DNA from: Sphingobacterium populi
Lineage (GTDB): Bacteria; Bacteroidota; Bacteroidia; Sphingobacteriales; Sphingobacteriaceae
DNA: 64,000 nt
Assembly (NCBI RefSeq): GCF_001586775.1
Contig: NZ_LQXS01000003.1
Location: forward strand, 62,001-126,000
Direction: 5' to 3'
Position numbers and translations under genes: made by a program. The notes beneath the pieces were generated by a model that saw nothing but the letters and a program-made list of their open reading frames with translations, had not been told where the DNA came from and ran no database searches. Positions 164 to 52,114 of this stretch are shown in pieces (position 1 is the stretch's first letter; each line of letters opens with the position of its first letter).

Positions 164-1216
164 ATGTCAAAAACGATATTGATTACCGGCGGAGCCGGAT
201 TTATTGGTTCTCATGTAGTAAGGGAATTTGTTACTAAATATGCCGACTATCGTATTGTCAATCTGGATGCGTTGACGTATGCAGGGAATTTGGAGAACCT
301 AAAAGATATTCAAGACAAGGCCAATTATACATTCGTAAAAGCGGATATTACTGATGCAGCTCATATTCTAGAAGTATTTAAAGAATACCAACCAGACGGT
401 GTGATTCATTTGGCTGCAGAATCTCATGTGGATCGTTCGATCACGGATCCCTCTGCTTTTGTGATGACCAACGTTATCGGCACTGTTAACTTACTAAATG
501 CGGCCCGAGAAATCTGGAAGGATAATTTTGAAGGGAAGCGTTTCCACCATGTATCTACAGACGAAGTTTTCGGAGCATTGGGTAGCACAGGTTTGTTTAC
601 AGAAGATACTAAATACGATCCACACTCGCCGTATTCTGCGTCGAAGGCATCGTCAGATCATTTTGTAAGAGCTTATCATGATACATATGGCTTACCGATA
701 GTACTAACGAATTGCTCAAACAACTATGGTCCCAACCATTTTCCAGAAAAACTGATTCCGTTGTGTATTCATAACATTTTGAACAACAAACCTTTGCCAA
801 TATATGGTGACGGCAAGTATACCCGGGATTGGTTATTCGTAATCGATCATGCGAAAGCTATTGATTTAGTTTATCATAAAGGTAAAAATGGGGATTCTTA
901 TAATGTGGGAGGTTTCAATGAGTGGCAAAATATTGATTTGGTTAAGGAATTGTGCCAACAAATGGACGACAAATTAGGCAGAACTAAGGGAACTTCCGAA
1001 AGCCTAATTACCTACGTGAAAGACCGGCCAGGGCATGATCTCCGTTACGCGATCGATGCTACAAAAATTAATAAAGAATTGGGATATATGCCATCTGTAA
1101 CCTTCCAACAAGGACTGTCACTGACGATCGATTGGTTTTTGAATAACAAAGAATGGCTGCAGAATGTAACCAGTGGGGATTACCAAAACTATTACGAAAC
1201 GCAGTACGAAAGATAA
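164..1216 (+). CDS. rfbB: dTDP-glucose 4,6-dehydratase (RmlB)
   Basis: Second step of dTDP-L-rhamnose synthesis: converts dTDP-D-glucose to dTDP-4-keto-6-deoxy-D-glucose using bound NAD in the cytoplasm. At 350 residues it is the usual family length. The N-terminal Rossmann motif GGAGFIG is at residues 9-15, the catalytic STDE is at 131-134 and the YSASK motif gives Y157 and K161, the extended-SDR catalytic pair. The ATG start has no sensible competitor. The gene heads the set rmlB-rmlC-rmlD-rmlA, which is complete, so the cell can supply dTDP-rhamnose to the glycosyltransferases downstream. Confidence 0.96.
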   Translation: MSKTILITGGAGFIGSHVVREFVTKYADYRIVNLDALTYAGNLENLKDIQDKANYTFVKADITDAAHILEVFKEYQPDGVIHLAAESHVDRSITDPSAFVMTNVIGTVNLLNAAREIWKDNFEGKRFHHVSTDEVFGALGSTGLFTEDTKYDPHSPYSASKASSDHFVRAYHDTYGLPIVLTNCSNNYGPNHFPEKLIPLCIHNILNNKPLPIYGDGKYTRDWLFVIDHAKAIDLVYHKGKNGDSYNVGGFNEWQNIDLVKELCQQMDDKLGRTKGTSESLITYVKDRPGHDLRYAIDATKINKELGYMPSVTFQQGLSLTIDWFLNNKEWLQNVTSGDYQNYYETQYER

Positions 1217-1217
1217 T

Positions 1218-1769
1218 ATGAAGGCTACAGAAACCAAGCTGAAAGGCTGTTTCATTTTAGAACCCAAAAAATTCGGAGATAGCCGCGGTTACTTCTTCGA
1301 AAGCTTCAACGAGCAAACATTTAATGAGGTCACGAAAACCCAAACTCGGTTTGTGCAAGATAACCAATCGTATTCTACGAAAGGTGTATTGAGAGGTTTG
1401 CACGCACAGGCAGGCGAATATGCACAAGCTAAGTTAGTACGCGTATTATCTGGAAAAGTATTAGATGTAGCGGTTGACGCAAGAAAAGGCTCTGCCACAT
1501 TTGGCCAGCACGTAGCTGTGGAGTTGTCGGCCGAAAATAATCTGCAATTATTTGTTCCACGTGGGTTCTTGCACGGTTTTGTAGTGTTAAGCGATACGGC
1601 CACCTTCTTTTATAAGTGCGATAACTTTTATCATAAGGATGCCGAACAAGGTGTGCGTTTTGATGATGATACATTGGGCATAGATTGGATTTTGCCACAC
1701 GGGTCTCTTTTGGTTTCCGACAAAGACGGTGTATTACCAACCTTTGCTGAAGTGTTTGGTGGTAAATAG
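1218..1769 (+). CDS. rfbC: dTDP-4-dehydrorhamnose 3,5-epimerase (RmlC)
   Basis: Third rhamnose step, epimerising the 4-keto-6-deoxyglucose intermediate at C3 and C5. The 183-residue cupin-fold protein shows RGLH with the catalytic base H62, K72 in the KLVRV strand and Y132 in FFYKCDNFY, which line up with the known His/Lys/Tyr active site. I chose the ATG at 1218, one base after the rmlB stop codon. A longer frame reaches back to 1173 but would overlap rmlB by 44 bases and add residues that the family lacks. Confidence 0.95.
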   Translation: MKATETKLKGCFILEPKKFGDSRGYFFESFNEQTFNEVTKTQTRFVQDNQSYSTKGVLRGLHAQAGEYAQAKLVRVLSGKVLDVAVDARKGSATFGQHVAVELSAENNLQLFVPRGFLHGFVVLSDTATFFYKCDNFYHKDAEQGVRFDDDTLGIDWILPHGSLLVSDKDGVLPTFAEVFGGK

Positions 1770-1798
1770 TCAAAGAAGAGGGGTATTAGAATAGCTTT

Positions 1799-2647
1799 AT
1801 GAAAATTTTAGTTACCGGAGCTAACGGACAGTTGGGCCAAGAGTTGCAAGTCGTAGCGAAACACTATCCTCAAGATGTTTTTATCTTTGTTGGTCGGGAT
1901 GAAATGCCCTTGAACCATCCTGCACAAATTAACTCCGTATTAGATCATCACAATCCGGATTTTATCATCAACGCAGCTGCTTATACAGCGGTTGACAAGG
2001 CAGAGTCCGAACTCGAATTGACGGATCTAGTGAATCATCAAGCGGTGGCTAGCATGGCAAAATGGGCAAAGCAACATAGCGTTCAATTGATTCACGTATC
2101 CACAGATTATGTGTTTCAAGGGGATAGCAGTACACCACTTACGGAGAGTGAAGAAACAAATCCGATCAATGTTTATGGTTCCTCCAAGCAAAAAGGAGAG
2201 CAAGCTATTTTGCAGTCTGGTGCTGATGCAGTAATCATCCGCACTGCATGGGTTTATTCTACCTACGGTGCGAACTTTGTGAAAACAATGATTAGATTGA
2301 TGACTGAGCGCGACGAGATTTCGGTTATTTCAGATCAAATTGGTTCGCCCACTTACGCCTACGATCTAGCTATGGTCATCTTGACTATTGCGCACAGTGA
2401 CAAATGGAATGCTGGTATCTATCATTATAGCAATGAAGGTAAAACTTCTTGGTATGATTTCGCTATAGCTATTCGTGACGTGAGATCTTTAGACTGTAGG
2501 ATTAAGCCAATTTCAACAGAACAATATCCTACACCCGCCAAACGTCCACGATATTCTCTTTTGGACAAGACGAAGATAAAGGATACCTTTGCAATAGAAA
2601 TCCCAAATTGGGAAGAAAGCTTGAGGTTGATGGTGGGAAAATTATGA
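1799..2647 (+). CDS. rfbD: dTDP-4-dehydrorhamnose reductase (RmlD)
   Basis: Last step of dTDP-L-rhamnose synthesis, NAD(P)H-dependent reduction of the 4-keto group. The 282-residue protein has the nucleotide-binding motif GANGQLG at residues 7-13, STDYVF from residue 101 and the SDR pair Y126/K130 in YGSSK. Length and motif order fit RmlD. It follows rmlC by 29 bases in the same direction and precedes rmlA. Confidence 0.95.
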   Translation: MKILVTGANGQLGQELQVVAKHYPQDVFIFVGRDEMPLNHPAQINSVLDHHNPDFIINAAAYTAVDKAESELELTDLVNHQAVASMAKWAKQHSVQLIHVSTDYVFQGDSSTPLTESEETNPINVYGSSKQKGEQAILQSGADAVIIRTAWVYSTYGANFVKTMIRLMTERDEISVISDQIGSPTYAYDLAMVILTIAHSDKWNAGIYHYSNEGKTSWYDFAIAIRDVRSLDCRIKPISTEQYPTPAKRPRYSLLDKTKIKDTFAIEIPNWEESLRLMVGKL

Positions 2648-2680
2648 ACTCCAAATTTGACTTTATTATAATATAAATTT

Positions 2681-3541
2681 ATGAAGGGAATAATTCTTGC
2701 CGGCGGTTCCGGTACACGTCTGCATCCTTTAACATTGGCCGTAAGCAAGCAGTTGATGCCGGTTTACGATAAACCTATGATTTATTATCCCTTGTCGACA
2801 CTGATGTTAGCAGGGATAAAAGACATACTCATAATTTCCACGCCGCAGGATTTGCCTCATTTCGAAAAGTTACTTGGAGATGGCTCACAATTAGGATGTT
2901 CGTTTAGTTATAAGGAACAACCTTCTCCAGACGGATTGGCTCAAGCATTTATTTTAGGTGAGGAGTTTATAGGTGACGATAAGGTAGCGTTAATTTTGGG
3001 CGATAATATCTTTTATGGCTCTGGCATGTCCAAGTTATTACAGTCAAATGCTAATCCGAATGGTGGTTGTGTTTTTGCGTATCAAGTGCACGACCCAGAA
3101 AGATATGGTGTCGTCGATTTTGACGCTGACAAGAAGGTCGTTTCCATTGAAGAAAAACCTGCAAATCCTAAATCAAACTATGCAGTTCCTGGATTATACT
3201 TCTATGATAATGAGGTCGTCGAGATTGCCAAAAGCATAAAACCGTCTCATCGTGGCGAATTAGAAATTACAGACATTAATAAAGTATATTTAGAACAAGG
3301 AAAATTGCAAGTTGGCGTTTTCGATCGTGGTACCGCTTGGCTAGATACTGGCACAATTCAATCTTTGATGCAGGCTGGTCAATTTGTTCAGGTGATTGAA
3401 GAGCGAACTGGAACAAAAATAGGAGCGATTGAAGAGGTAGCTTTTAGAATGGGTTATATTGATGGCGATCAGTTGTTACGTTTGGCAGAACCATTGGTAA
3501 AGAGTGGGTATGGAGAGTATTTAAAAGTAATTGCGAAATAG
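2681..3541 (+). CDS. rfbA: glucose-1-phosphate thymidylyltransferase (RmlA)
   Basis: First step of dTDP-rhamnose synthesis: glucose-1-phosphate plus dTTP to dTDP-glucose and pyrophosphate. The 286-residue protein has the pyrophosphorylase signature [11 protein letters not shown] from residue 8, the [11 protein letters not shown] sugar-phosphate nucleotidyltransferase block and D107 in LGDNIFYG for metal binding. It is usually allosterically inhibited by dTDP-rhamnose in this family. Only 4 bases separate its stop from the ATG of the export gene, so the sugar-nucleotide and export genes are probably co-transcribed. Confidence 0.96.
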
Positions 3542-3545
3542 TACT

Positions 3546-6031
3546 ATGAAGAAGGATTTGTATTGCGTTATAATGTTTCTAATCATTGGTTTATTTTCTA
3601 TGAGAATTGATGCTGTAAGTGCACAATCGTTAGACTATTCCAAAGTAAAAGCGGAGTCATTGAGTGATGATCAGATTTTACAAATGATCACTCGTGCTGA
3701 GGAACAGGGATTAACTCCTAATGAGATGTACGACACATTGACGGAGCAAGGAATGTCAAGCTCTGAGGTGTTAAAACTGCGGTCTCGAGTAAATAAAATA
3801 CGTAAAGAAAAAGTCGGTAATCAAAAGTTATCTTCGCTCGTAGACCTAAGCGAGGAAGGGAGAAGTGTTAGTAAGGAAAGTGATTTAATTGATACTTCGA
3901 CAGGAGAAGACGCTCAAAAAGACGACAGTTCGAGAATCTTTGGCTCTTCGTTATTTAACAATGGTAATATAAAGTTCGAGCCGAACCTAAATATTCCAAC
4001 CCCATCAAACTATATCGTGGGAACAGGCGATCAGTTACTGGTCGAGCTTACAGGTGATAACGAGGCTAGTTATAAACTTCCAATAAATGCCGAAGGCACA
4101 ATAAGGGTAGAGTATGTTGGTATTGTAGAGGTGGCTGGGCTAACGATAGATGAAGTAAAAGCGAAGCTCTTCAATCGATTTGTAGGTACATATCCATCTC
4201 TTCGTTCTGGAAGAACAAATCTTTCATTGAGTCTAGGAAATATTAGATCTATTAAAATAATTTTAACTGGCTTCGTAACACAGCCTGGTACGTATACTCT
4301 ACCATCTGTTGCAAGTGTTTTTAACGCGTTGTATGCTGCTGGTGGGCCCTCAGATAAAGGAACATTTCGTAATATCCAGATTATTAGAATAATAGTATTG
4401 TCGGGACTATCGATGCTTATGACTTTTTAGTCAATGGATATCAATCTGGTAATATTCGATTAGTAGACCAAGATGTTATACACATTCCAGTACAACAAAA
4501 ACAAGTAGAGATCGAGGGCTTGGTGAATAGACCAGGTTTTTTTGAAACCAAAGATGGTGAGAGTTTCAGCGATTTATTACGATATGCTGGTGGATTCACC
4601 TCAAAGGCTTACCGTGCAAAAATTAGAGTATTTGAAACAACAGACAGAGATCGTCGGATACGAGATATTTATGCAGCTGATTTTGATTCTTACCTTCCTA
4701 AAAACGGGGATCATTATATTGTGGAAGAGATTCTCGACCGGTACGAAAACAGAGTGCAGATAGAAGGAGCAGTTTTTAGGCCAGGCTATTATGAATTGTC
4801 TGAAGGCTTAACAGCTCGCGACCTACTCAACAAGGCAGATGGGATTAAGGAAGATGCTTTTATGACAAGAGCCTATATCAATAGGCTTAATGCTGATAAT
4901 ACGCAGAAGCTTATTTCTTTCAATTTGCAATCTTTACTAGACGGTACTACAGCCGATATTGATCTTAGAAGAGAAGATAGACTAATTGTTTCTTCTATTT
5001 TCGATTTACGTGAAGAGTACAGCATAAATGTAGATGGTGAAGTGCGAAAACCCGGGAAGTTTCAATACGCAGAGGATATGACTTTAGGAAATGTTATTCA
5101 CATGGCAGGTGGGCTTTCTGATGCGGCTAATATTGAACGTATTGAAATTGCTAGAAGAATCCGACGAAACATAAATGAGCGTGATTCTGTACTATCTGAG
5201 CTATTAGTGGTGAATTTTCCCGATAAAGAATCCGCATTGGAATCCGATTTTGTCTTACAACCATTCGATATCATAAATATTCGAACTAGCACAGGCTATC
5301 AATTTCAAAAGCAAGTGCGTGTAGAAGGAGAGGTTAATTATCCTGGAGTTTACACGCTAGTGTCAAAAGATGAGACAATCTCTGACATTATAAAAAGAGC
5401 TGGGGGTGTAACGGATTATGCCTATTTAGAAGGAGCCTCTTTACAACGTACAATTTCTGATGCTAGAATAGCACTAGATAATAATCACGCCTCGGATTCC
5501 GTGCAGTCAGTTATTGATGAGATTGTGGATGCGGATGACTCAGTTCAAGGACGAGTGCTGACCATCAATAAGGATGTACGAGCAAAGAATACCTCGTTGG
5601 CTTTGAGTAACTATGTTGGAATTCAATTACCTAAAATTTTGGATAAGCCGCATTCTAGTCGTGATCTTTTAATGGAAAATGGAGATATCATTATTGTGCC
5701 AAGGCAGTTGCAAACTATCGTGGTAAGAGGAGAGGTGCTTAACGCCAATCGAATTGTCTATAAAAAGGGAATGCCGTTAACTTACTATGTTAACCAAGCA
5801 GGAGGATTTACGGCAAGTGCACATAAGAAAAAGACTTTTGTCCAATATGCTAATGGAGAAGTTAAAAGTACAGTTGTTGGTCTAGGTCGGATTTATCCGG
5901 AAATAAGACCGGGCGCAGAAATTATTGTGCCGCAGAAGCCTGTTAAGCAACCAATGGGTGCGAGAGCCCTTATCGGTCTAACATCTGCTGCCGTTTCTAC
6001 CATGGCTATTATCTTAAGTCTTTTACGCTAA
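3546..6031 (+). pseudogene. multi-SLBB polysaccharide export protein (Wza-like), interrupted by a -1 frameshift
   Basis: The product is an outer-membrane/periplasmic polysaccharide exporter. A signal peptide (first 27 residues, ending VSAQ) is followed by a polysaccharide-export domain with VGTGDQLLVELTGDNEA, then several SLBB-type repeats (VEIEGLVNRPGFFETKDGE, VQIEGAVFRPGYYELSEG, YSINVDGEVRKPGKF, VRVEGEVNYPGVYTLVSKDE, IVVRGEVLNANRIVYKKG), and a hydrophobic C-terminus. The frame starting at ATG 3546 stops at 4430, while the same protein continues in another frame from about 4388 to 6031. Adding one base near 4388 (AGAATAAT read as AGAAATAAT) restores about 828 residues with SLBB sequence continuous across the join. 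Either the gene is broken or a base was lost in sequencing. It partners the Wzz at 6033. Confidence 0.85.
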
Positions 6032-7241: not shown

Positions 7242-8774
7242 GTGGTCGATAATAGGAGAATTGCAAAGAATACAATGTTTCTTTATTTCCGTATGTTTTT
7301 AAACATGGGAGTCGCGCTTTATACCTCTAGATTAGTGCTTTCTACTCTTGGTGTCGAAAACTATGGCATCTATAGTGTCGTTGGCGGGGTAGTGGTGCTT
7401 TTCAGTTTCTTTAATTCATCGATGTCGTCGGCTACACAGCGTTTTTTAGCCATAGATTTTGGTAGAAAAATTGAAGGAAATTTGCAGTATACTTTTAATA
7501 CAGCTCTAGCCATTCATTTAGCAATAGCTGTGCTAGTATTAATTATTGCCGAGTCGGTCGGTCTGTGGTTCGTCAACTATCGACTAAATTTTCCTGCCGA
7601 ACGAATGACTGAAGTAAATATAGTGTATCAGTTCTCTGTGCTTTCAAGTATCATTGGTGTAACACAAGTCCCCTTTAATGCTTTAATTATTGTACGAGAG
7701 CGTATGAGCATCTTTGCTATGATAAGTGTCGCAGAAACCTTTTTGAGATTAATAATCGTCTATATATTGGTACGCGCTCCTTATTCAAAACTGGTTAGTT
7801 TTTCAGTATTATTGTTTATTGTTAGCTTAGTTATTTCCACATTTTATAAAGTCTACTGTCTCCGATCGTTTAAAGAAAGCAAATTTATGATTGTGAAAGA
7901 ATGGGCTCTTTATGGGGAACTTCTTTCATATTCGGGATGGAATTTGATAGGTAATATAGCCACCGTTGGTAAAGGACAGGGGGTAAACATCTTGCTTAAT
8001 GTTTTTTTTGGAACACTTTTAAATGCAGCATATGGAATTATGATCCAAGCACAAACAGCCGTGCAATCATTTGTCCTAAATTTCCAGATTGCTGTTAATC
8101 CTCAGATCTATAAACTATATGCAGAAAATAAGCTCTCCCAAATGCACGGACTTATGTTTAGAAGTTCGAAGTTTTCTTATTTTCTGTTGTTCATTTTGAT
8201 CTGTCCAATCGTTTATAACATTGATTATCTACTTGTTTTCTGGCTAAAAAATCCTCCGGAATTTTCTAACGTGTTCATAAAGTACGCACTTATAAATTTA
8301 TTGATAGAGTGTGTCTCCGGAGCGCTCATTACCGGAGCTTTGTCAACAGGGAAAATTAAGTGGTATCAAATAGTGGTAGGGAGTATTTTATTGCTAAACC
8401 TACCTATAAGCTATATTGCATTCAAGTTTACAAATAATCCGGTTGCATTTCTTTACGTTTCTATTTTTATAGCATTCTTAACTTTGATTTTTCGATTGTT
8501 GTTTTTGCGAAAAATGATTAAATTGAACGTGAAAGATTATGTGTGTAGTGTCTTGATCCCCATACTTTTGGTAAGTGTTTTTACCGGTTTATTCATGGTT
8601 GGTTATTTTGCATTCTTTGGTAAGGCAGATTCTATTGTTATGCTTTTCATAACGAGCTGTGTAATTATGTCGTTTGGAATGTTTGTTATTATACTGGTTG
8701 GTTGCAATCACGGAGAAAGATTGGTCCTTTTGAGGTCAGTTGAAGTGATTAAGAATAAATTTAAATCCCGATGA
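7242..8774 (+). CDS. lipid-linked oligosaccharide flippase (Wzx family)
   Basis: Polytopic inner-membrane protein of 510 residues, predicted to flip undecaprenyl-linked repeat units to the periplasm. It has about a dozen hydrophobic segments and the N-terminal block NRRIAKNTMFLYFRMF. The start is a GTG at 7242, supported because the second flippase at 43231 aligns from its own N-terminus with the same RIAKNT block. The two flippases are clearly homologous but diverged, which points to two separate repeat units. A 135-base gap separates it from wzz. Confidence 0.9.
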   Translation: MVDNRRIAKNTMFLYFRMFLNMGVALYTSRLVLSTLGVENYGIYSVVGGVVVLFSFFNSSMSSATQRFLAIDFGRKIEGNLQYTFNTALAIHLAIAVLVLIIAESVGLWFVNYRLNFPAERMTEVNIVYQFSVLSSIIGVTQVPFNALIIVRERMSIFAMISVAETFLRLIIVYILVRAPYSKLVSFSVLLFIVSLVISTFYKVYCLRSFKESKFMIVKEWALYGELLSYSGWNLIGNIATVGKGQGVNILLNVFFGTLLNAAYGIMIQAQTAVQSFVLNFQIAVNPQIYKLYAENKLSQMHGLMFRSSKFSYFLLFILICPIVYNIDYLLVFWLKNPPEFSNVFIKYALINLLIECVSGALITGALSTGKIKWYQIVVGSILLLNLPISYIAFKFTNNPVAFLYVSIFIAFLTLIFRLLFLRKMIKLNVKDYVCSVLIPILLVSVFTGLFMVGYFAFFGKADSIVMLFITSCVIMSFGMFVIILVGCNHGERLVLLRSVEVIKNKFKSR

Positions 8775-8831: not shown

Positions 8832-10112
8832 ATGAAGAATTTAACAGCATTTATTAGAGGCGGACAAGTTCCTAGAGGTAACGTAAGAGTTAGTGGGGCT
8901 AAAAATGCGAGCACACGTTTACTTGCAGCATCACTTATTGCGGACGAACCCGTCGTTTTAAATAATTTTCCCACAGAGCTTGTAGATGCTAAGCATAAGA
9001 TTAATTTTATCAATCGTAGTGGTGGGAAAGTACTTGTTGATGCTGTGGCTGAACAAATTACGATAGATAGTTCACAGCTTGGTACTTTGCCGCTAGATGA
9101 TTATGATTATCCGATCCGTACCACCTACTTATTAGTAGCCGGTTTAATCAAAAAATCGGGTGTGGCGAGAATTCCCTATCCAGGAGGGTGCAAAATTGGT
9201 GATCGAGGATATGATCTCCACATTATGGTATGGGAGAGGCTTGGAGCTAAAGTTGTGGAGAAGGAAGGGTATATTGAAGTAACTGCCACTAAAGGATTTC
9301 AAGCCGGCGTGATTGACTTTCCAATATCGACCATTGGTGGTACGGAGAATGCTTTAATCTCCGCCTCTACGATTTCCGATGAAACTATTATAAAAAATGC
9401 ATATATAAGTCCAGAGGTATATAGCTTAATCGAGTTTTTGCGAACGATGGGTGCACATATCGATGTAGTAGGCAATAGTTTTATTAAAGTTAAGGGTGCA
9501 AAATATCTGCGTGGATCAATTTTTGATGTAATGCCAGATCGGATTGAGGCGATCACATGGATCGTTTACGGTATTATTTCCGGTGGACAAATCACCGTAG
9601 AGGATGTGCCATTTGATACTATGGAAATCCCTCTTATTCATTTAAAACATGCGGGTATTGAATTGTACCGGAATTCCAATAACGTGATAATTTCGCCCGA
9701 GTGTCTTGTAAATGGTGAAATACAGCCATTCGAATTGGCTTGTGGGACTCACCCAGGGATTATTTCTGATATGCAATCTTTCTATACTTTGCTTGGATTA
9801 TTTGGGAACGGCACAAGTCGCGTTTTCGATTATCGCTACCCTGAGCGTATCAAATATTGTTATGAACTTAACAAGTTTTTTCCGAATAGCATCGAGGCTA
9901 CTCCAGGGACTATAAAAATTCAGGGAGGGACACCGCCTTTAGCGGCTACGGCCGAATCGACAGATCTAAGAGGCAGTATGGCGGTCGTAATGGCGGCATT
10001 ACTGGCAGATGGTGAGTCAACAATTCATAATGTTGAAATGGCGCTAAGAGGATACAATAATTTAGAAGCGAAGCTTAAAAGTTTGGGTGTAGACTTTCAG
10101 GTGACAAGCTAA
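8832..10112 (+). CDS. MurA-like UDP-N-acetylglucosamine 1-carboxyvinyltransferase in a polysaccharide locus
   Basis: Enolpyruvyl transferase of the MurA/AroA fold, 426 residues. Catalytic positions of MurA are present: K24-N25 in SGAKNAS, C120 in PGGCKIGDRGYDLH (matching Cys115 of E. coli MurA, the fosfomycin target) and D313 in SDMQ (matching Asp305). The expected reaction is transfer of enolpyruvate from PEP to the 3-OH of UDP-GlcNAc or a related UDP-sugar. It stands beside a MurB-like gene and before glycosyltransferases, away from any other cell-wall genes, so I infer that it makes a lactyl-ether sugar for the polysaccharide. It could instead be an extra housekeeping MurA. Confidence 0.88.
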   Translation: MKNLTAFIRGGQVPRGNVRVSGAKNASTRLLAASLIADEPVVLNNFPTELVDAKHKINFINRSGGKVLVDAVAEQITIDSSQLGTLPLDDYDYPIRTTYLLVAGLIKKSGVARIPYPGGCKIGDRGYDLHIMVWERLGAKVVEKEGYIEVTATKGFQAGVIDFPISTIGGTENALISASTISDETIIKNAYISPEVYSLIEFLRTMGAHIDVVGNSFIKVKGAKYLRGSIFDVMPDRIEAITWIVYGIISGGQITVEDVPFDTMEIPLIHLKHAGIELYRNSNNVIISPECLVNGEIQPFELACGTHPGIISDMQSFYTLLGLFGNGTSRVFDYRYPERIKYCYELNKFFPNSIEATPGTIKIQGGTPPLAATAESTDLRGSMAVVMAALLADGESTIHNVEMALRGYNNLEAKLKSLGVDFQVTS

Positions 10113-10132
10113 AGCGAATTAATGAACTACCC

Positions 10133-10993
10133 ATGAAGATTATCGAAAATTTGGATTTGACGGCCTACAATTCTTATCGTGTAGCGTCAAGGTGTAAAAG
10201 GGCTTTTTTTCCAGAAAGTGAAGAGGATATTCGTGACATTTTACAAGAGCATGGAAATGGTTCTATAATTATGTTGGGAAGTGGTCATAACGTGATTCTT
10301 TCCAAGAGCTTTTACGACCAAGATTTTATGGTGTTTAATGGTAATTTTGATTCTGTTAAGCTAATAGATGATCAAACAATACACGCCCAGGCGGGAATCG
10401 ACCTTTTGCAGCTTAGTGAATTCGCTTTGTCTAAATCATTATCAGGAATGGAAATTTTTTACGACATACCAAGTTCATTAGGAGGTGCAATAGTAATGAA
10501 TGCTGGTGCTAATGGAGAAGATATTCATAGTTTAATTTTAAATGCTCGTTACTACGATCCAAATAAAGATGAGTTTATTGAGCTACATTCCGCTGATATA
10601 TCTAGAGGTTATCGAGATAGTTATTTTCAACAGAACCCCCACTTGGTTATTACTGAAGCAACAATTAAACTTTCCAAAGGATCTGCATCGCTTATTAAAA
10701 TGAAAATGCAAACAATAAAAGAGCAACGTTGGGCCAAACAGCCAAAAGACTTTCCAAATGCTGGTAGCGTCTTTAAGCGCCCTGCCGGTTATTTTGTTGG
10801 CGCTATCATGGATGAACTTTCACTGAAAGGTGTTTCGATAGGCGGAGCCAAAGTCTCAGAAAAACACGGCGGCTTTATTGTCAATTACAATAAAGCGAGT
10901 GGAGAAGATATTATGGCACTTATTGAGCACATACAGCAATGTGTTGAAAACAAATATGGCTTCCGATTAAATGTTGAACAGCGAATTATTTAA
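10133..10993 (+). CDS. MurB-like UDP-N-acetylenolpyruvoylglucosamine reductase in a polysaccharide locus
   Basis: FAD-dependent reductase of the MurB family, 286 residues, expected to reduce an enolpyruvyl-UDP-sugar to the lactyl ether. Visible features are the FAD-binding block LGSGHNVILSK, SSLGGAIVMNAGANG, Y160-R161 followed by DS, S212 in NAGSVFK as the proton-donor serine, and E282 in the C-terminal VEQRII. The length and the YRDS block suggest the shorter type II MurB. It lies 20 bases after the MurA-like gene, so the two are probably one transcriptional and metabolic unit. One deviation is His in the usual GGGSN-like glycine loop. Confidence 0.88.
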   Translation: MKIIENLDLTAYNSYRVASRCKRAFFPESEEDIRDILQEHGNGSIIMLGSGHNVILSKSFYDQDFMVFNGNFDSVKLIDDQTIHAQAGIDLLQLSEFALSKSLSGMEIFYDIPSSLGGAIVMNAGANGEDIHSLILNARYYDPNKDEFIELHSADISRGYRDSYFQQNPHLVITEATIKLSKGSASLIKMKMQTIKEQRWAKQPKDFPNAGSVFKRPAGYFVGAIMDELSLKGVSIGGAKVSEKHGGFIVNYNKASGEDIMALIEHIQQCVENKYGFRLNVEQRII

Positions 10994-10996
10994 TTG

Positions 10997-12013
10997 ATGG
11001 AATTACAAAAACCTAAGGTAAGTATTATTTCAGGATATTATAATCGTGAAGATTATGTTCAAGAGTCCATTCAAAGTTTACTTGACCAAACATTTACTGA
11101 TTTCGAAATTATTATTTTTGATGATTGTTCAACAGACTCGACTCGTCAAAAATTAAGGAGGTTGGCTGCGACTGATAGTAGGATTGTACTCATCTTGCAT
11201 GAACAGAATCAAGGTTTTGTTAATGGAATAATTGATGCAGTAGCAATTGCGAAAGGTGACTATATTGCGATCCATGGTTCAGGAGATTTTTCTCTTCCTG
11301 AACGTATTGAAAAGCAGGTGGAAGTGTTGGATCAATCTGGAAGTATTGGTTTGGTTGGTTGTTATGTTGAAAATATCGAACTTAATATGGGTTTTGAGCG
11401 TGTTACATTATGGAAGCATGATGTAACAGGCAAATGCATCGATCTTTTAAACAAACAAAATTTGTTTACCCACGGAGAAGTTATGTTTAAGCGTGCTTTA
11501 TATAACCAAGCAGGAGGGTATCGCTCCTTCTTTAAGTTTACTCAAGACTACGACTTATGGACCAGAATGGCCATACATAGTGAATTTTTCACTATTCCTG
11601 AGGTACTATACCGTCGGTATTTGCGGAGAGACGGTGCATCAGTTGTTCCTGAGAAACGATTGCTACAATCCTTGCTAGCTGTGATTGTGAGGCAAAATAT
11701 CCGTTTCATAAAAAAGGGCAAACCCGATTTAGTCGATGAGTATGGTAATCAGGCCATTGATTATATTACTGAAATTCCAAAGAAATCAGCCGAACTTCTA
11801 ACTAATAGAACATTGGAAGTTTTGATAGAGAAAGGGAAAAAATCTGTTTTAGCTAGACGTGTCATATTTTTATTTTCCAAGCAGAGAGACTATCTGTTTT
11901 TGGGAGTATTGCTTAGAACACTTGTTTTGTTGCCGCAGAGTTTTATTGAAAGATTGGCAAAAAATTCAGTGTTTAAATATATTTTATCAGTTACAATTTA
12001 TAAGTTGCCGTAA
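10997..12013 (+). CDS. family 2 glycosyltransferase
   Basis: Cytoplasmic or membrane-associated transferase of the GT-A fold, 338 residues. The N-terminus shows VSIISGYYNREDYVQESI and FDDCSTDST, typical of GT2 enzymes, then ITEIP and a hydrophobic C-terminal helix. The usual DxD is replaced by HGSGD near residue 95. I chose the ATG at 10997 instead of the TTG one codon earlier. It starts 3 bases after the murB-like stop codon, so it may be the enzyme that uses the lactyl sugar. Donor and acceptor cannot be read from sequence. Confidence 0.85.
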   Translation: MELQKPKVSIISGYYNREDYVQESIQSLLDQTFTDFEIIIFDDCSTDSTRQKLRRLAATDSRIVLILHEQNQGFVNGIIDAVAIAKGDYIAIHGSGDFSLPERIEKQVEVLDQSGSIGLVGCYVENIELNMGFERVTLWKHDVTGKCIDLLNKQNLFTHGEVMFKRALYNQAGGYRSFFKFTQDYDLWTRMAIHSEFFTIPEVLYRRYLRRDGASVVPEKRLLQSLLAVIVRQNIRFIKKGKPDLVDEYGNQAIDYITEIPKKSAELLTNRTLEVLIEKGKKSVLARRVIFLFSKQRDYLFLGVLLRTLVLLPQSFIERLAKNSVFKYILSVTIYKLP

Positions 12014-13067: not shown

Positions 13068-13988
13068 ATGCTATTTTCAATTTTAATCGCAAATTACAAT
13101 AACTCTTTATACATCGAAGAAGCATTGAAAAGCGTCTATGCACAAACTTACCAGAATTGGGAAGTTATTATTGTTGATGATGCTTCTACCGATAATTCTT
13201 TAGAGATTGTAAAACCGTATTTAGACGATTCTCGAATCAAGCTTTTTAGAAACGATAAGAATCGAGGTTGTGGCTATACTAAAATGCGGTGTGCTGAGCA
13301 AGCCATTGGTACTTATTGCGGTTTTCTTGATCCTGATGATTCATTGACGATAGATGCTCTGCAAGTAATGGTAGATGCTTTTCGGAAATTTCCCGCTGCA
13401 TCGATGATTAACTCTAAAAATGTTTTTTGTGATGAGAATATGAATGTTATCGAAGTAAATCCGTATTCTCAAGATGTACATGATAAGGGTTCTTATCTTT
13501 TGTATGAAGGTTTAGGAGTGACACATTTTGCAGTGTATAGAAATGAATTATATAGACAAACTGTTGGATTATCTCCGGAGTTTACAAAGGCTGTAGATCA
13601 AGACTTGTTCTATCTTTTGGATGATATGGGTACAATTTTCTTTGTAGATAAGGTGCTATATAATTACCGTATTCACAGTGGCGGCATTTCAACTTTCTCA
13701 AATGCTATGCCAGCGCTTTATCAACATTATCGTGTAAAAAAGAAAGCTGCTTTACGAAGACTGACTGACAAAAAATTTACGGAGCAATTTAAAAATTTGA
13801 GAACGTTGCTGTATAAGTGTGATTTTCACATGGCGATGCTTGAAAAGAGATATTTTAAAGCATCCAAATTTTTGCTAATCTATACATTTAATGGTGGAAG
13901 TAAAGAAGTTTTTGCTATGATTGTAAGACTTTTTCGTCATCCAAGCAGGGTGATAAATTCTATTTTTAATGTCTATAAAGTAAAATGA
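13068..13988 (+). CDS. family 2 glycosyltransferase
   Basis: GT-A-fold transferase of 306 residues. It starts FSILIANYNNSLYIEEAL, has VDDASTDNS as the nucleotide-binding acidic block and LDPDDSL as the DxD-like metal site. Its stop codon overlaps the start of the GH16 lipoprotein by four bases (ATGA), so the two are translationally coupled. Sugar specificity is unknown. Confidence 0.87.
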   Translation: MLFSILIANYNNSLYIEEALKSVYAQTYQNWEVIIVDDASTDNSLEIVKPYLDDSRIKLFRNDKNRGCGYTKMRCAEQAIGTYCGFLDPDDSLTIDALQVMVDAFRKFPAASMINSKNVFCDENMNVIEVNPYSQDVHDKGSYLLYEGLGVTHFAVYRNELYRQTVGLSPEFTKAVDQDLFYLLDDMGTIFFVDKVLYNYRIHSGGISTFSNAMPALYQHYRVKKKAALRRLTDKKFTEQFKNLRTLLYKCDFHMAMLEKRYFKASKFLLIYTFNGGSKEVFAMIVRLFRHPSRVINSIFNVYKVK

Positions 13989-14788
13989 TTCCAGCTGTTA
14001 ACCTCACCAATTTTATATTGGTTTTGTCGTGCTTCTTTTTGTTGATGGCCTGTAGAAAGCCAGATCTTAATATTGAAGGCTTACCTACTGTCGTATTGCC
14101 ACCACAAGGCTACACACTTGCTTGGGAGGATGAATTTGATAAAGCACTTCTTGATTCCACAAAGTGGTCATTCAGGCAGTTGGGTAGGCGTAGAAGTGGA
14201 TTTAATACAAGGGAATGTATTATACCCAACGAAGAGCGCGGGACATTAACAATTCGTACTTTCTTGAGGAACGATTCAATATTTACGGGTATGATTGGCA
14301 CGCAAGAAAAATTCGAACAACAATATGGGTATTTTGAATGCAGTGCTCGCATAAGCCAAATAGCCTACGGATATTGGGCAGCTTTTTGGCTGCAATCTCC
14401 AGATATTGGTAAAACTCTCAATCCAGAAGTAGACGGTGTTGAAATAGACATTATGGAATTTGTACACGGTTATCCTTATCAAGTTAGTCAAGCGATTCAT
14501 TGGAATGGATACGCACAGAATCACATGATGTCTAGCAATAATATATTATCAGACTCGAGGTTTGATGGTGCTCAATACCATCTCTATTCGATGGAGTGGA
14601 CTCCAGATTACTATCGCTTTTTTGTTGATCGAAGGATGGTTTGGGAAGTTCGAGGACCAATTTCACATAGAGAACAATATATGATTCTTAGCTGTGAAGT
14701 TGGAGATAGATTACCCTTCATCAACACATTCGGGAATACTCCTGTAGATTTCGAGATTGATTACGTGCGTGTTTATAAAAAAGAGTAG
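13985..14788 (+). CDS. GH16-family glycoside hydrolase/transglycosylase lipoprotein
   Basis: A 267-residue exported protein with an N-terminal lipobox LLMAC (Cys23) and a laminarinase-type GH16 domain beginning YTLAWEDEFD. The catalytic motif EIDIME gives E153, D155 and E158, the nucleophile/helper/acid-base set of the family. Members cleave or transglycosylate beta-1,3/1,4-glucans and galactans. Being encoded between polysaccharide glycosyltransferases and overlapping one by ATGA suggests that it trims, releases or remodels the polymer made by this locus; that role is inference. The substrate is unknown. Confidence 0.88.
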   Translation: MIPAVNLTNFILVLSCFFLLMACRKPDLNIEGLPTVVLPPQGYTLAWEDEFDKALLDSTKWSFRQLGRRRSGFNTRECIIPNEERGTLTIRTFLRNDSIFTGMIGTQEKFEQQYGYFECSARISQIAYGYWAAFWLQSPDIGKTLNPEVDGVEIDIMEFVHGYPYQVSQAIHWNGYAQNHMMSSNNILSDSRFDGAQYHLYSMEWTPDYYRFFVDRRMVWEVRGPISHREQYMILSCEVGDRLPFINTFGNTPVDFEIDYVRVYKKE

Positions 14789-16983: not shown

Positions 16984-18069
16984 ATGGCATTTAGGAAATT
17001 TTGGATATCTTATTTTTCTGTTAAAGTATTTTACCTTTTTTTTGCTTTCTTTGTTTACGGTAAGCTTACGACATTGGGAGATACGTCGTCCTATTTAAAC
17101 AAGGGCATCTCGTTCGGTTTAGAAGTTTTTTTTTCGTCTACTTCCATGATGTTTTTCCTGGGTGGCATATTTAAAACGATCTTCTTTATTGATGTGTTGG
17201 CTAGTATACCCCTTATGTTACTATCGTTTTATGGTATTTATTACGCTGTAGATCGCTTAAATCTTTATCGATATCCCATTCTGCTTTTCGTAGGATTATC
17301 ATTGCCAAATTTTGCTGTATGGACCAGTATACATTCTAAAGAGGCGGTTGCTTGTTTCTTCTGCGGCGTATTAGCTGTTATGATTATCCGTTTCCTAAAT
17401 GAAGATTTTAAAATCCGATTTATATATTTAATCGCACTTTACTTCTGTCTTTTATTTAAGCCTCAGTATCTTTTGTTTATTGCTCAAGCATTGGTTTTTT
17501 TACGACTAATTGCATTCTTTAAAATGGGTCCTACTGCCACATTTTTGTTAGGCGTAATTATGTTTACATTAAATCTTGTAGGCGTGTATTTGTTGCGAGA
17601 TTTGATTGATACCTTGGCACAAGGGATGTATCTACACTTTACATATAAGGATCCAGAAATGGCTAAAAGTACACGATCGGCTGATCCTTGGTTAGAGCAA
17701 TATGGTTTTTTTAAACAAGCACCATACGGTATGTTTATTGCATTTTGGGGTCCAACTGTGAAAGAGATGGTATCCAAACCAGTACAACTGATTGCAGGAA
17801 TAGAAAGTGGTTTCTTACTTTTGCTTTTCATGCTCTTATGTTACAAACGTTTGACATATTTTCTGAACAAAGGACTTTTTAATCCCCGTATCTATTTTGC
17901 TTTGGGTATCATTATTGTAGGTATTTTATTCGTGCATTACCCATTTGGTTTTTTAAATCCTGGGTCGGGAATACGATATAGAGCTAACTTCTATCTGTTA
18001 TTCCTTTTAATGCTTTTCTATTTGTTTGATATGAATGCCATATCTCGAATAATTAAAAATAAAATATAA
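16984..18069 (+). CDS. putative oligosaccharide repeat-unit polymerase (Wzy-like membrane protein)
   Basis: A 361-residue polytopic membrane protein with about nine to ten hydrophobic segments and a larger loop near residues 210-250 (DLIDTLAQGMYLHF to WLEQYGFFKQAP). Wzy polymerases have little sequence conservation, so the call rests on topology and on position: this first system has a flippase and a Wzz but no other polymerase candidate. It is very AT-rich, as usual for repeat-unit-specific genes. A T9 run at 17106-17114 is intact in frame. Confidence 0.7.
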   Translation: MAFRKFWISYFSVKVFYLFFAFFVYGKLTTLGDTSSYLNKGISFGLEVFFSSTSMMFFLGGIFKTIFFIDVLASIPLMLLSFYGIYYAVDRLNLYRYPILLFVGLSLPNFAVWTSIHSKEAVACFFCGVLAVMIIRFLNEDFKIRFIYLIALYFCLLFKPQYLLFIAQALVFLRLIAFFKMGPTATFLLGVIMFTLNLVGVYLLRDLIDTLAQGMYLHFTYKDPEMAKSTRSADPWLEQYGFFKQAPYGMFIAFWGPTVKEMVSKPVQLIAGIESGFLLLLFMLLCYKRLTYFLNKGLFNPRIYFALGIIIVGILFVHYPFGFLNPGSGIRYRANFYLLFLLMLFYLFDMNAISRIIKNKI

Positions 18070-21371: not shown

Positions 21372-22390
21372 TTAAATAGGTTTCTTTTGCTTGTAAAAAA
21401 GCACACTATTTATAATTGGTGTTCTTTTTGCCACAATATAAATAAGAATACATAACCCTATTGTGAAAACGAAATTGGCAATATCTGCTATTACTAATAG
21501 CTTATAGCTAGATTGAGGGATAAATTTCCTAGAAATCTTGTATAAATTGGGTTCTATAAGAGCGTGAAAGCATAAAATGAAAAGGCTTGCTTTTCCGCAA
21601 GCTACAAACACTAATTTTAGTGGAGTAATGCGGCGTAATACGTGTTTGGAAATAAAAAACACTAGATATATTCCACATGCGACTGACAAAAGGGTGAAAA
21701 AGGTATTCCCGAAGATATCTGCAACGATATTTAAACGGATGTTCAACGTATTTTTAAAGTACATAAGTAGTCCATAGCTGAATAAGATTATAAGAAATAT
21801 TACGCTATTATTTACTAAATAATCTTTAAGGAGAGATTTATGTTTTTTAAAAGTGTATCCAATAGCTAAAAAAAGTACGACGTAAATATAAGTGTAAGCA
21901 TATAGATAATCTATCTTGAATCCATTTGCAAGAAAAACTCCAATCAAAGCTAAAATAGCATACAGTAATTTTTTTTACTGTGGGATTCCCATGCGGACAA
22001 TATGATATGGAAAATTACTAATCCAAAATAGAGACTAATAGGAAACCACATTGGTAGCAAAAAATCTTTAAATTTCAATGTTGTTAATGCTTCAAGTGCT
22101 TCGTTGCGAAAGCTAGGCTTGATTGCGGAGTAGAATAGAAAAAGCGAAACTATAAGTACTATAGCAGGTTTCAGTAAACCATTTGTTTTATGTTTTATAA
22201 ATGCTTTTAAATCGGGATAAAAGCTGAACAGGTATCCTGAAATAAAAAGAAAAAGTGGAACTTTAAAAATAATCAAGTAGGAATTGAAAGTGCTTATAGA
22301 TTCATAGGTGTCACTTATTGTAAAGTGTGACAAAGTCATCAGGAGAATGCTGATCCCCTTGGCAATGTCAATAGTTTCGTTTCTGTGCAT
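21372..22390 (-). pseudogene. acyltransferase-3 family membrane protein, split by a one-base frame break in an A8 tract
   Basis: The protein begins MHRNETIDIAKGISILLMTL and has SHF and multiple membrane helices, typical of the acyltransferase-3 family that O-acylates surface sugars. The frame from 22390 ends at 21950, yet the remaining helices continue in another frame from there to 21372. The junction is a run of eight A on the coding strand (T at 21969-21976). With nine A the reading is SHSKKKLLYAILALIGVF and a protein of about 339 residues results. It is the only minus-strand gene in this cluster and has its own promoter, so it could be controlled separately. Confidence 0.82.
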
Positions 22391-24856: not shown

Positions 24857-26239
24857 ATGATTAACATACAAAAAATTACTTGTATAGGTGCCGGCTATGT
24901 CGGCGGTCCCACTATGTCTGTGATAGCGCAGAAAAACCCCAATGTCGAAGTTACCGTTGTGGATTTGAACCAGCAACGGATTGCCGCTTGGAATGACGAA
25001 AATTTGGAGAATCTTCCGGTTTATGAACCCGGTCTGGATGCAGTAGTTGGGGAAGCACGTGGCCGGAATTTGTTCTTTTCTACCGACGTAGATAAGGCTA
25101 TTGATGAGGCGGATATGATCTTTATCTCTGTCAATACGCCTACAAAGACGTATGGTAAAGGCAAAGGACAGGCGGCAGATTTAAAATATATAGAATTATG
25201 TGCCCGTCAGATTGCTACAGTAGCCAAATCAGACAAGATTGTGGTAGAGAAGTCGACCTTACCTGTACGAACTGCAGAAGCACTAAAAAGTATTTTGGAT
25301 CATACCGGCAATGGTGTCAACTTTCATATTCTTTCTAATCCTGAATTCTTGGCAGAAGGTACGGCGGTAACCGATTTGCATAATCCGGATCGCGTATTGA
25401 TTGGTGGCGAAGATGCCGAAGCGATCGAAGCGCTAGTGCAGGTCTATGAAGCTTGGGTGCCGAGAGAGCGCATTTTAACCACCAATTTATGGTCTTCCGA
25501 GCTTTCTAAGTTGGTGGCCAATGCATTTTTGGCGCAGCGAGTCTCCAGTATCAATGCCATTTCTGAGTTGTGTGAAGTCACCGGTGCAAACGTCGATGAA
25601 GTAGCACATGCTATTGGTAAAGACAGTCGTATAGGCTCTAAGTTCTTAAAAGCATCGGTAGGCTTTGGCGGGTCATGTTTCCAGAAAGATATTCTAAACC
25701 TAGTCTACATCGCGCGTTCTTATCACCTAAACGAAGTGGCTGATTATTGGGAACAGGTGATTTTGTTAAACGATCATCAGAAAACACGCTTCGCCGAGCG
25801 AATCATTAAAAACATGTACAATACCGTTAATGGAAAGCAAATCGCATTCTTAGGTTGGGCATTTAAAAAAGATACTAACGATACACGTGAATCGGCGGCT
25901 ATCTATGTGGCGGATCATCTGTTAGACGAAGAGGCAAACATTATCGTCTACGATCCAAAAGTATCTGCCGAACAGATCTACCGTGATTTGGATTATTTAG
26001 GTACGCGTTCTCCAGAGGAGAATCGCCGTTTAGTAACAGTAGTAAGTACAGCGGATCAAGCAGTAAATGGCTCGCATGCAGTGGCCATATTGACGGAATG
26101 GGATGAGTTTAAGCACTACGATTGGGCGAAGATTAAAGAAAATATGAAACGTCCTGCATTCCTTTTCGATGGTCGGAAACTGCTTCATGGGGTTGAATTA
26201 CAGAAAATAGGATTCTCCTATTACGCGATAGGCGAATAG
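24857..26239 (+). CDS. ugd: UDP-glucose 6-dehydrogenase, copy 1
   Basis: Oxidises UDP-glucose to UDP-glucuronate with two NAD+. The 460-residue protein has the NAD motif GAGYVGG from residue 11, the [11 protein letters not shown] block, [10 protein letters not shown] and the catalytic C274 in [10 protein letters not shown]. It resembles the longer eukaryote-like branch of the family. A second copy at 52928 differs at only about 30 positions by eye (roughly 93% identical). UDP-glucuronate probably feeds an acidic sugar in both polysaccharides. Confidence 0.95.
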
Positions 26240-43230: not shown

Positions 43231-44758
43231 ATGATTGACGCAAATAATAAGAGAATAGCGAAAAACACGCTATTTCTCTACATTAGGATGCTTCTGATAA
43301 TATTTGTAAACCTTTATACGGTTAGAATTGTGCTGCAAGAGTTGGGAACAGAAGACTACGGCATATACAACTTAGTAGGTGGTGTCGTTGCAATGTTCTC
43401 TTTTTTAAGTCAATCTTTATCTTCTGCATCCCAACGTTTTTTTGCTTTAGAAATTGGTAAAAATAATAGTAGTATGTTAGCTAGTATTGTTAACACCACA
43501 TTATGGACTTACATTTTTCTGGCGATTATAATATTTGGAATCGGACAACTATTAGGTTCGTGGTTTTTAAATGAAAAATTGACGACGATTCCATTAGATA
43601 GAGTGAGCACAGCAAATTTTGTTTTCAATTGTTCAATGATAAGTCTTGTTGTATCACTTCTTTCAGTCCCGTTCAATGCTTTGATTATTGCCAATGAAAA
43701 AATGAATGTCTACTCCTACATATCAATATTCGAAGTTGTTTTTAAACTGATTTCGGTTTTTCTATTACAATTATATGTCGGAGATAAATTGAGACTATAT
43801 GCAATAATTTTACTTCTATCAACAAGTATTGTAGGTTCATTGTACTTTTTTTATTGCCAAAAAAATTATCCACATATAAAATACTCTAGAACTTGGGACA
43901 AATCCGTTCAAAAAAAGATTTTAAGTTTTACAGGTTGGAATATGTTTGATTCTATGGCTAACGTTATGAATACGCAAGGTATGAATATTTTTCTCGGATA
44001 TTTTTTTGGTCCGCTTGTAAATGCCGGGCGTGGTGTAGCATATCAGGTAAGCGTAACATTAAACCAGTTTGTTCTGAATTTTGTAACAGCTACAAAGCCC
44101 CAAATAGTCAAATATTATGCTCAAAATGAGTTAGCTGCTATGCAAAGTTTAGTTTTTCGTAGTTCTAAGTTTTCATTTTATCTGTTAGCTGTAGTAACGA
44201 TTCCATTTTTTTTTAAACGCAGAGCTTTTATTTCAACTATGGTTGGGAGATGTTCCAGATTATGTGGTAGAATTCACGAAATTGATTCTTGTAGCAATAT
44301 TGATTGATGTGGTTTCGTATCCATTAATGGCTCATGTTCAAGCTACTGGAAAAGTGAAGCTTTTTAGTGCTTCAATTGGAGTACTAAAATTGTGCAATTT
44401 GCCAATTGCATATATTTTATTGAGTTTTGGAGGCCAACCGAGTATCGTGTTTTTAATTAATATCGGTTGTTCCATCCTTTGCTTACTTTTCAGGCTATTA
44501 ATACTCAGGAAGCTTGATGGATTTCCGATCGTGCAATTTGGTAGACGGGTACTACTTCCAATTCTCTTAGTAAGTTTAATAACTGCGATTATCCCAAATA
44601 TTATGCGCTGGGAATCGACACTCGATTTTGGTGATTCGATAATCAGGCTCTTGATAGTTGGAGGAGCATTACTTGCGGCCATATTTTTTATAGGAATAAC
44701 AATAGGGGAACGAGTAGCCTTAATGTCGCTTTTCAAATCAAAGATAGCTAAAGGTTGA
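43231..44758 (+). pseudogene. second Wzx-type flippase, split by one extra T in a T9 tract
   Basis: Homologous to the flippase at 7242 from the first residues (RIAKNTLFLY, LGTEDYGIYNLVGGVVA) and with the same expected length once repaired (about 508 residues). The first frame ends at 44307 with unrelated residues after IPFF, and the true continuation (ELLFQLWLGDVPDYVVEF, then helices) is in another frame to 44758. A run of nine T at 44206-44214 lies at the break; eight T restores IPFFLNAELLFQLWLGDVP. Either the flippase is off or the run was mis-sequenced. It is AT-rich, as repeat-unit-specific genes usually are. Confidence 0.84.
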
Positions 44759-50416: not shown

Positions 50417-51037
50417 ATGTTAAGAAAATTGTTGGGAAGTATAGTTTATATACATCTCGGGTTGCAGGGATTATCTGATAGATTACTTTCTGTTTTTTAC
50501 AAAAGTCGATTTGGATCCTGCGGATCCTCTGTGATGATTAAGCCTTGTACATCTAACTTTAAAGGATTTGAGAATATTCATATAGGTACAGGTGTGCGGA
50601 TTGCGCGATATGCAGTAATATATTCTACAAATGCAAAGGTTTTCATAGGGAATAATGTAGGTGCTGCTCCGTACTTGTCAATAATTTCAGGAAATCATAG
50701 TGTCGGTAAGGTCGGCCATATCATGTTTGAACAGTCAGTGGATGATAAGATAGAGGGCGAAGATCAAGATGTGATTTTAGAGGATGACTTGTGGATAGGC
50801 ATACGCGTAAGTATTCTCTCTGGTGTCAAGATTGGCAGGGGAAGTGTTATTGCCGCTGGTTCGGTTGTTAATAAATCTTGTCCCCCTTACTCTATTATCG
50901 GAGGAGTTCCGGCTAAAGTTTTAAAATTTAGATTTACTGTTGAGGAAATTCTCCAACATGAAGAGCTCGTTTATACTGCTGAACAACGTATTTCTAAAGA
51001 ACAATTAATCGCTCAACGATCAAGTTACATTCAATGA
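50417..51037 (+). CDS. hexapeptide-repeat O-acetyltransferase
   Basis: A 206-residue LbH acyltransferase of the WcaF/NodL type: IHIGTGVRIARYAVIYS, VFIGNNVGAAPYLSIISGNHS, WIGIRVSILSGVKIGRGSVIAAGSV and GGVPAKVLKFRF. Its end overlaps the next glycosyltransferase by four bases (ATGA). It is the third acyltransferase in this block, so the polymer may be heavily acetylated. Confidence 0.87.
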   Translation: MLRKLLGSIVYIHLGLQGLSDRLLSVFYKSRFGSCGSSVMIKPCTSNFKGFENIHIGTGVRIARYAVIYSTNAKVFIGNNVGAAPYLSIISGNHSVGKVGHIMFEQSVDDKIEGEDQDVILEDDLWIGIRVSILSGVKIGRGSVIAAGSVVNKSCPPYSIIGGVPAKVLKFRFTVEEILQHEELVYTAEQRISKEQLIAQRSSYIQ

Positions 51038-52114
51038 AAATCTTAATAACTGCACCTAGTTTAGAAACTTCCAAAAATGTTAGCGGAATATCGACGGTAG
51101 TCAACACGATTATTGCGAATAATGTAGATCATGAGTACACACATTATTTGCTGGGACGACCTGATCAGTCAAATAGCCTGACATATCTTTTTGTGTTTAT
51201 CCGACAATTGATGTTCTTTCCGATTATATTAAAAAGAGAAAAAATAGAGCTTGTGCATCAAAATCTGCCATTCGATCCTAAAGGATTAATGCGAGAATCT
51301 GTTATAAATTTTTGGTGTTACCTCTTTAATGTTCCTGTTGTATTGCATATACATGGGGGAGCATTTTTAATGCAGAAAAATCCAAAGAAAATTTGGAGAT
51401 TTCTCAGTAGTGCTTTGTTTAAACATAGTCGTCAGGTTCTGGTTCTAAGTGAGCTCGAGCAAGCAGCACTTTTAAGCTTTCACAATTTTGGCGGTGCGAT
51501 TGTATTGTCTAATAGCATCGCTGTAAGTGATTATTTGTATAATCTTCGACAGCCTATTAATGAACCACCAGTCTTCTTGTTCCTGGGAAGATTGCACGAG
51601 AGTAAAGGTTTAGATGATATTTACGATGCGTTTTGTGTATTAAAACAGCAGTTATTAAGTTTCCGTTTTGTGTTATGCGGTTCAGGTCCGCTAATGGAAT
51701 CAGTAAAAAGTAAATTTGAAAAGTTATTGGGTTCTGATTTTGATTTTCGAGGAGTTGTATCGGGGGAAGATAAAGTAGCAGCATTTATAGATAGTGACTT
51801 TTTTTTTGCTACCCTCACGCTATGGAGAAGGTTTGCCGATGGCTTTGCTTGAGTCTATGGCATCCGGTCTAATTCCTATTGTGACTGATGATGCCTCGAT
51901 GAAATTCTTGGTACATCATAATCAAAATGGAATTCGGGTTGATAAGAGAAGTGGTAAAGATATTGCAGAAAAGATTACAGCTTTATTAAGCGTAGACCAC
52001 GAATATCTAACTCAGCTTAGATTAAGCGCTGTAAAGACAATTGTGGGATCGTATGATATCAAAGCCTATGTGAAAAAGTTGAATATGATCTATGCTGGTG
52101 ATTTTACAATTTAA
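51034..52114 (+). pseudogene. family 4 glycosyltransferase, split by one extra T in a T9 tract
   Basis: A GT-B enzyme starting ILITAPSLETSKNVSGIS with the donor-domain FLFLGRLHESKGLDDIYDA. The first frame ends at 51852 after SDFFF followed by unrelated residues, and the expected continuation LLPSRYGEGLPMALLESMASG (E-x7-E) runs in another frame to 52114. The break is a run of nine T at 51799-51807; eight T gives SDFFLLPSRYGEGLP and about 359 residues. Phase variation, mutation or a sequencing insertion would look alike. Confidence 0.85.

Follow-up and report, generated by a model that had tools for sequence, protein, structure and literature searches.

Why does a genome carry a MurA-like and a MurB-like gene side by side among the genes for a surface polysaccharide? 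Such a pair is located in the 64,000-nucleotide stretch of DNA analyzed here (the window), and an earlier note had taken it for an extra pathway serving the surface polysaccharide. We consider it probable (roughly 80%) that the two genes encode the first two enzymes of a mobile three-gene cassette (MurA*-MurB*-GT*), which is part of a Wzx/Wzy-type surface polysaccharide locus and makes and transfers a 3-O-lactyl sugar. Asterisks denote the dedicated, cassette-specific versions of each family (MurA*, MurB*, GT2*, GT4*). The pair consists of the following genes:

8832-10112, plus strand: dedicated MurA-like enolpyruvyl transferase of type 1, 426 aa, with the signature D-Y-R335-Y-P337-E-R and Cys120
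10133-10993, plus strand: dedicated MurB-like reductase of type II, 286 aa, without the Tyr190 loop of E. coli MurB

Both frames are intact and separated by 20 bases, in agreement with the earlier description. The PF00275 domain spans residues 14-415 of the MurA-like protein (153.4 bits) and places it in the family. The ORF scores 323.9 bits against NF006873, above the cut-off, and 309.8 bits against the murA equivalog TIGR01072, below the cut-off of 392.7. Alignment with E. coli MurA matches K24/N25, R96, C120 and R125 to K22/N23, R91, C115 and R120, and D313, R380 and R406 to D305, R371 and R397. The catalytic and PEP-site residues K24, N25, R96, C120, R125, D313 and R406 are all kept, including the three (C120, K24 and D313) that had been called intact before. 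An AlphaFold2 model of the protein, built from 21 sequences, reached a mean pLDDT of 92.2, and its top match in the PDB is 3kqj, the complex of MurA with UDP-GlcNAc (TM 0.88). The MurB-like ORF exceeds the cut-off of TIGR00179 (183.5 against 144.5 bits) and finds its nearest solved structure in S. aureus MurB (1hsk, E 9e-44). Its residues Y160, R161, S212 and E282 align with Y158, R159, S229 and E325 of the E. coli enzyme, which likewise bears out the claimed integrity of S212 and E282.

The surroundings of the pair comprise the following features:

164-1216, plus strand: RmlB, at the start of the polysaccharide locus
1173-1769, plus strand: 198-aa ORF, at the start of the polysaccharide locus
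1799-2647, plus strand: RmlD, a dTDP-rhamnose gene
2681-3541, plus strand: RmlA-like nucleotidyl transferase, at the start of the polysaccharide locus
3531-4430, plus strand: Poly_export/SLBB protein, at the end of the first block (164-4430)
7242-8774, plus strand: probable Wzx-type flippase, a 510-aa membrane protein directly upstream of MurA*
10994-12013, plus strand: glycosyltransferase of a module-specific GT2 family (GT2*), the predicted transferase of the lactyl sugar, with an in-frame ATG at 10997
13985-14788: GH16 family member whose N-terminus resembles that of a lipoprotein, within the operon
16984-18069, plus strand: candidate Wzy polymerase, a 361-aa membrane protein
24857-26239, plus strand: UDP-glucose 6-dehydrogenase-like protein, which could supply UDP-GlcA and is only a candidate member of the cassette

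The layout is that of a polysaccharide locus: dTDP-rhamnose genes, export genes and the probable flippase lie upstream of the pair, and GT2 and GT4 glycosyltransferases, the GH16 protein and the UDP-glucose dehydrogenase-like gene follow downstream, as the earlier note had recognized when it spoke of a glycosyltransferase operon. The ATG of GT2* is found three bases past the MurB* stop. Neither the putative Wzx (7242-8774), for which length, hydrophobic sequence and position speak, nor the candidate Wzy (16984-18069) has a Pfam match; hence, both were assigned by sequence and position only, which is a weak point of the cassette explanation. The GH16 protein possibly trims or releases the polymer.

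Several further observations concern the same window. It holds two similar 460-aa UDP-glucose dehydrogenase-like genes (24857-26239 and 52928-54310), and a third dehydrogenase, resembling UDP-GlcNAc 6-dehydrogenases, is located directly upstream of the window (locus L105, 8234-9526). At 43231-44758 and 51034-52114, overlapping short ORFs in different frames resemble one flippase and one glycosyltransferase and look as if split by a frameshift or an assembly error. On the minus strand, two adjoining ORFs (21372-22390) resemble the halves of one membrane acyltransferase whose frame may be broken by a stop or frameshift; no Pfam match was found for the 191-aa half.

If the genome contained no other murA and murB, the pair would have to be its housekeeping set. 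A search of the genome (3.56 Mb, 49 contigs), which the earlier note had proposed, detected a murA on contig C1 that scores 442.7 bits against TIGR01072 and is 29% identical to the window gene, and about 10 kb from it a murB with 405 bits against PRK00046, both above the NCBI equivalog cut-offs. Since separate equivalog-grade copies are present, the pair is ruled out as the genome's housekeeping murA/murB, and its reading as an extra copy stands; the window MurA itself falls below the TIGR01072 cut-off and is not the sole murA of the genome. The same holds for other carriers: all 20 carrier genomes checked possess another murA, which in 19 of them exceeds the equivalog cut-off, while the dedicated copy stays below it in all 20.

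We then compared 30 dedicated MurAs (25 of type 1 and five of type 2) with 22 housekeeping MurAs in a midpoint-rooted FastTree phylogeny. The dedicated proteins, with the window MurA among them, form a paralogous clade that is separated from all 22 housekeeping sequences with a support of 1.0, so that the tree proposed for MurA likewise favors the earlier reading. This division is mirrored by an R-x-P signature, which is present in 30/30 dedicated and 0/22 housekeeping MurAs, the latter having V/I/M-x-E. At the position of E. coli Val327, which we take from structure annotation to contact the sugar, the dedicated proteins carry Arg throughout, whereas V, I or M is found in all 22 housekeeping enzymes; at position 329 (E. 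coli), Pro is invariant in the dedicated set and Glu occupies 21 of the 22 housekeeping sequences. Further substrate-site positions differ invariably between both groups. Two docking studies list Val327 as an active-site residue of MurA.

In its fold (TM 0.88-0.90), its catalytic residues and the Cys at the fosfomycin site, the window protein thus resembles peptidoglycan MurA (EC 2.5.1.7), from which it differs by an identity of only 28-31% to MurA structures, its score below the TIGR01072 cut-off, the R-x-P in place of V/I/M-x-E, the polysaccharide context and its separate clade. A comparable picture emerges for the reductase. Dedicated MurBs share the catalytic Ser, Glu, Arg and Tyr with type II peptidoglycan MurB (S. 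aureus, 1hsk), but Tyr125 (E. coli numbering), present in 29/32 non-cassette MurBs, is substituted in every dedicated MurB compared, and Asn233 is replaced by Arg in the Bacteroidota type. A MurA relative outside peptidoglycan synthesis is already known in NikO of nikkomycin biosynthesis, an enzyme of antibiotic synthesis whose substrate is UMP (PMC6801904); its structure 4fqd matches our model with a TM of 0.85-0.87, although the identity to the window protein in this structural match is 23%.

A scan of 84,980 genomes retrieved 22 relatives with 53-76% identity from Bacteroidota, Alteromonas and other Gammaproteobacteria, Alphaproteobacteria, Microbacterium and Pelagicoccus; two Alteromonas species are among the cassette carriers. 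Loci of Olivibacter, Pedobacter, Mucilaginibacter and Parapedobacter match genomes that group with the window's as one family, which puts the window in Sphingobacteriaceae, the family meant below. A second subtype, MurA-2, is 35-41% identical to the window protein; five genomes of the family encode it, and best matches place it on at least three alphaproteobacterial plasmids as well. Dedicated MurBs likewise fall into two types, one from Bacteroidota and one mainly from other phyla, and both MurA types occur with both MurB types.

Within 400 genomes of the family, separate searches identified MurA* and MurB* in the identical 13. GT2* (>150 bits) is encoded in nine of these, every time directly after MurB*, with a gap between 154 bits and the next match at 114.5 bits across the 400 genomes; the remaining four carry GT4* at their loci. 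Among 32 loci from four phyla, 31 have MurB adjacent to MurA or close by, and 29 contain GT2* or GT4*, the two never occurring together. The GT2* group (21 members) is closed, as all its members outrank every other GT2 in 72 loci when the window gene and four others serve as queries, and a GT4-like group of eight members takes its place in other loci. For control, we examined regions around a polysaccharide co-polymerase gene from the window genome's family; GT2* or GT4* occurred in 0/40 of them and MurA* in 0/34 of those long enough to count. When the cassette is defined by a MurA of the R-x-P clade, a dedicated MurB and GT2* or GT4*, the window contains one. With about 3% of genomes carrying it, the cassette is rare; its distribution is patchy, and it is retained as a unit.

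Two kinds of observation speak against the cassette explanation. The R-x-P signature could affect a property other than acceptor choice, and there are exceptions: three of the 32 loci have neither transferase, and one MurA* lacks a MurB*. The latter belongs to a Lunatimonas MAG (L051, 9992-14922) with MurA*, a flippase and GT4* and a single murB found in the genome; it may use the housekeeping MurB, its sugar may remain enolpyruvylated, or the MAG may be incomplete. The smallest form of the cassette that we saw resides on plasmid unnamed2 of Qingshengfaniella alkalisoli (L170, 8965-12202), where MurA-2, MurB and GT2* stand alone among catabolic and transport genes, no further polysaccharide genes being annotated nearby.

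Second MurA copies serving peptidoglycan are known, for instance in Gram-positive bacteria. Since the window pair belongs to the same enzyme families, it might be a backup or fosfomycin-insensitive-type isozyme that has come to lie in a polysaccharide locus by chance. We regard this as improbable, given the polysaccharide setting, the link to specific glycosyltransferases across phyla and the separate clade of the dedicated MurA. Moreover, the residue at the fosfomycin position is the reverse of what a resistance role would demand, as the extra copy carries the Cys attacked by the drug and the housekeeping MurA of this genome an Asp (PGGDKIG). The patchy spread (13/400 genomes of the family) could also be taken to indicate horizontally acquired genes that are decaying and without function. 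Intact frames, invariant catalytic residues and strong purifying selection between close relatives make this very unlikely; dN/dS came to 0.01-0.05 for two pairs of close relatives, the synonymous sites of the window genes themselves being saturated in this comparison.

For the cassette as the preferred reading, we propose a route drawn from what is known of the three enzyme families. MurA* would transfer the enolpyruvyl group from PEP onto a UDP-activated sugar, most likely at O-3, and MurB* would reduce it with FAD and NADPH to a lactyl (1-carboxyethyl) ether. The module-specific glycosyltransferase would attach the acidic lactyl sugar to the repeat unit on its lipid carrier; flipping, polymerization and export of that unit would follow. 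The reactions themselves, the attachment at O-3 and the occurrence of the lactyl sugar in the polysaccharide are our inference.

Sugars of this kind are known from surface glycans: MurNAc occurs in the LOS of Psychrobacter arcticus (PMC4515632), 3-O-lactyl-GlcA in an Alteromonas EPS (PMC2901825) and 4-O-lactyl-Man in a Salinivibrio O-chain (PMC8466920). They represent the kind of product expected here and are known by chemistry. The earlier note had called such sugars made by dedicated MurA/MurB copies rarely described, which needs qualifying: the product class is known, and it is a dedicated, modular MurA/MurB(/GT) gene set with a diagnostic signature for lactyl sugars in polysaccharide synthesis that was not found in the open-access literature searched.

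Two cases may be distinguished for the sugar that accepts the enolpyruvyl group. The pair may convert UDP-GlcNAc into ordinary UDP-MurNAc and so provide a separately regulated source of it for a surface polysaccharide that contains MurNAc, a possibility to which we give somewhat less than an even chance. The fold and catalytic residues are those of MurA and MurB, UDP-GlcNAc is the simplest acceptor, MurNAc is known from surface glycans (PMC4515632), and many cassettes lack an adjacent sugar-nucleotide gene, which fits a substrate present in every cell. The housekeeping enzymes, however, already supply UDP-MurNAc, and R-x-P together with the other invariant differences is hard to explain with unchanged substrate and product.

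Given this divergent substrate-site signature, the product may derive from a UDP-sugar other than UDP-GlcNAc. The acceptor could be a uronic acid such as UDP-GlcA, yielding 3-O-lactyl-GlcA or a similar diacidic sugar, which we likewise hold to be plausible at rather less than even odds. A different acceptor would account both for the signature, with its Arg in 30/30 proteins at a substrate-site position, and for the apparent redundancy with the housekeeping enzymes; in addition, 3-O-lactyl-GlcA is found in an Alteromonas EPS (PMC2901825), two Alteromonas species carry the cassette, and genes for UDP-GlcA/UDP-GlcNAcA dehydrogenases or epimerases adjoin several cassettes. Against this, dehydrogenases are not enriched (7/18 cassette versus 18/34 control loci) and epimerases only weakly (6/18 versus 2/34, p = 0.015, uncorrected and one of three tests). 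A likeness of GT2* to chondroitin synthase was considered as a sign of UDP-GlcA specificity and dropped, because this likeness is equal or stronger in further GT2s encoded in the window. A wider proposal is that MurA* transfers the enolpyruvyl group to an acceptor new to its family, such as UDP-GlcA or some other UDP-sugar besides UDP-GlcNAc, and that several phyla share the cassette as a general 3-O-lactyl pathway for surface polysaccharides, spread horizontally, in which MurA, MurB and transferase types are swapped like modules; it remains tentative, with chances somewhat below even.

The fosfomycin site separates the two MurAs of the cell. Cys is found in 30/30 dedicated MurAs and Asp in 11/22 housekeeping MurAs compared; by our reading of the sequences, these eleven probably comprise the copy of this genome and ten from Bacteroidota that group with it in the tree. 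In Mycobacteria and Chlamydia, a change from Cys to Asp at this site has been associated with resistance to fosfomycin (PMC6801904). The drug sensitivity predicted from Cys120 in the earlier note therefore applies at most to the dedicated enzyme, and the cell need not be sensitive, as its housekeeping MurA has Asp. Fosfomycin might hence block the surface sugar alone and may offer a chemical means of switching the lactyl-sugar pathway selectively.

The cassette is a concrete and widely distributed candidate for the genes that add the lactyl group to coat sugars, and the combination of an R-x-P MurA, a MurB and one of two transferases could predict lactylated surface polysaccharides from genomes. 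If this is true, the first committed steps of peptidoglycan synthesis have been copied for another polymer. Our analysis suggests, in short, that the opening reactions of wall building were duplicated in bacteria and that the copies serve to produce unusual acidic coat sugars with a lactic-acid group.
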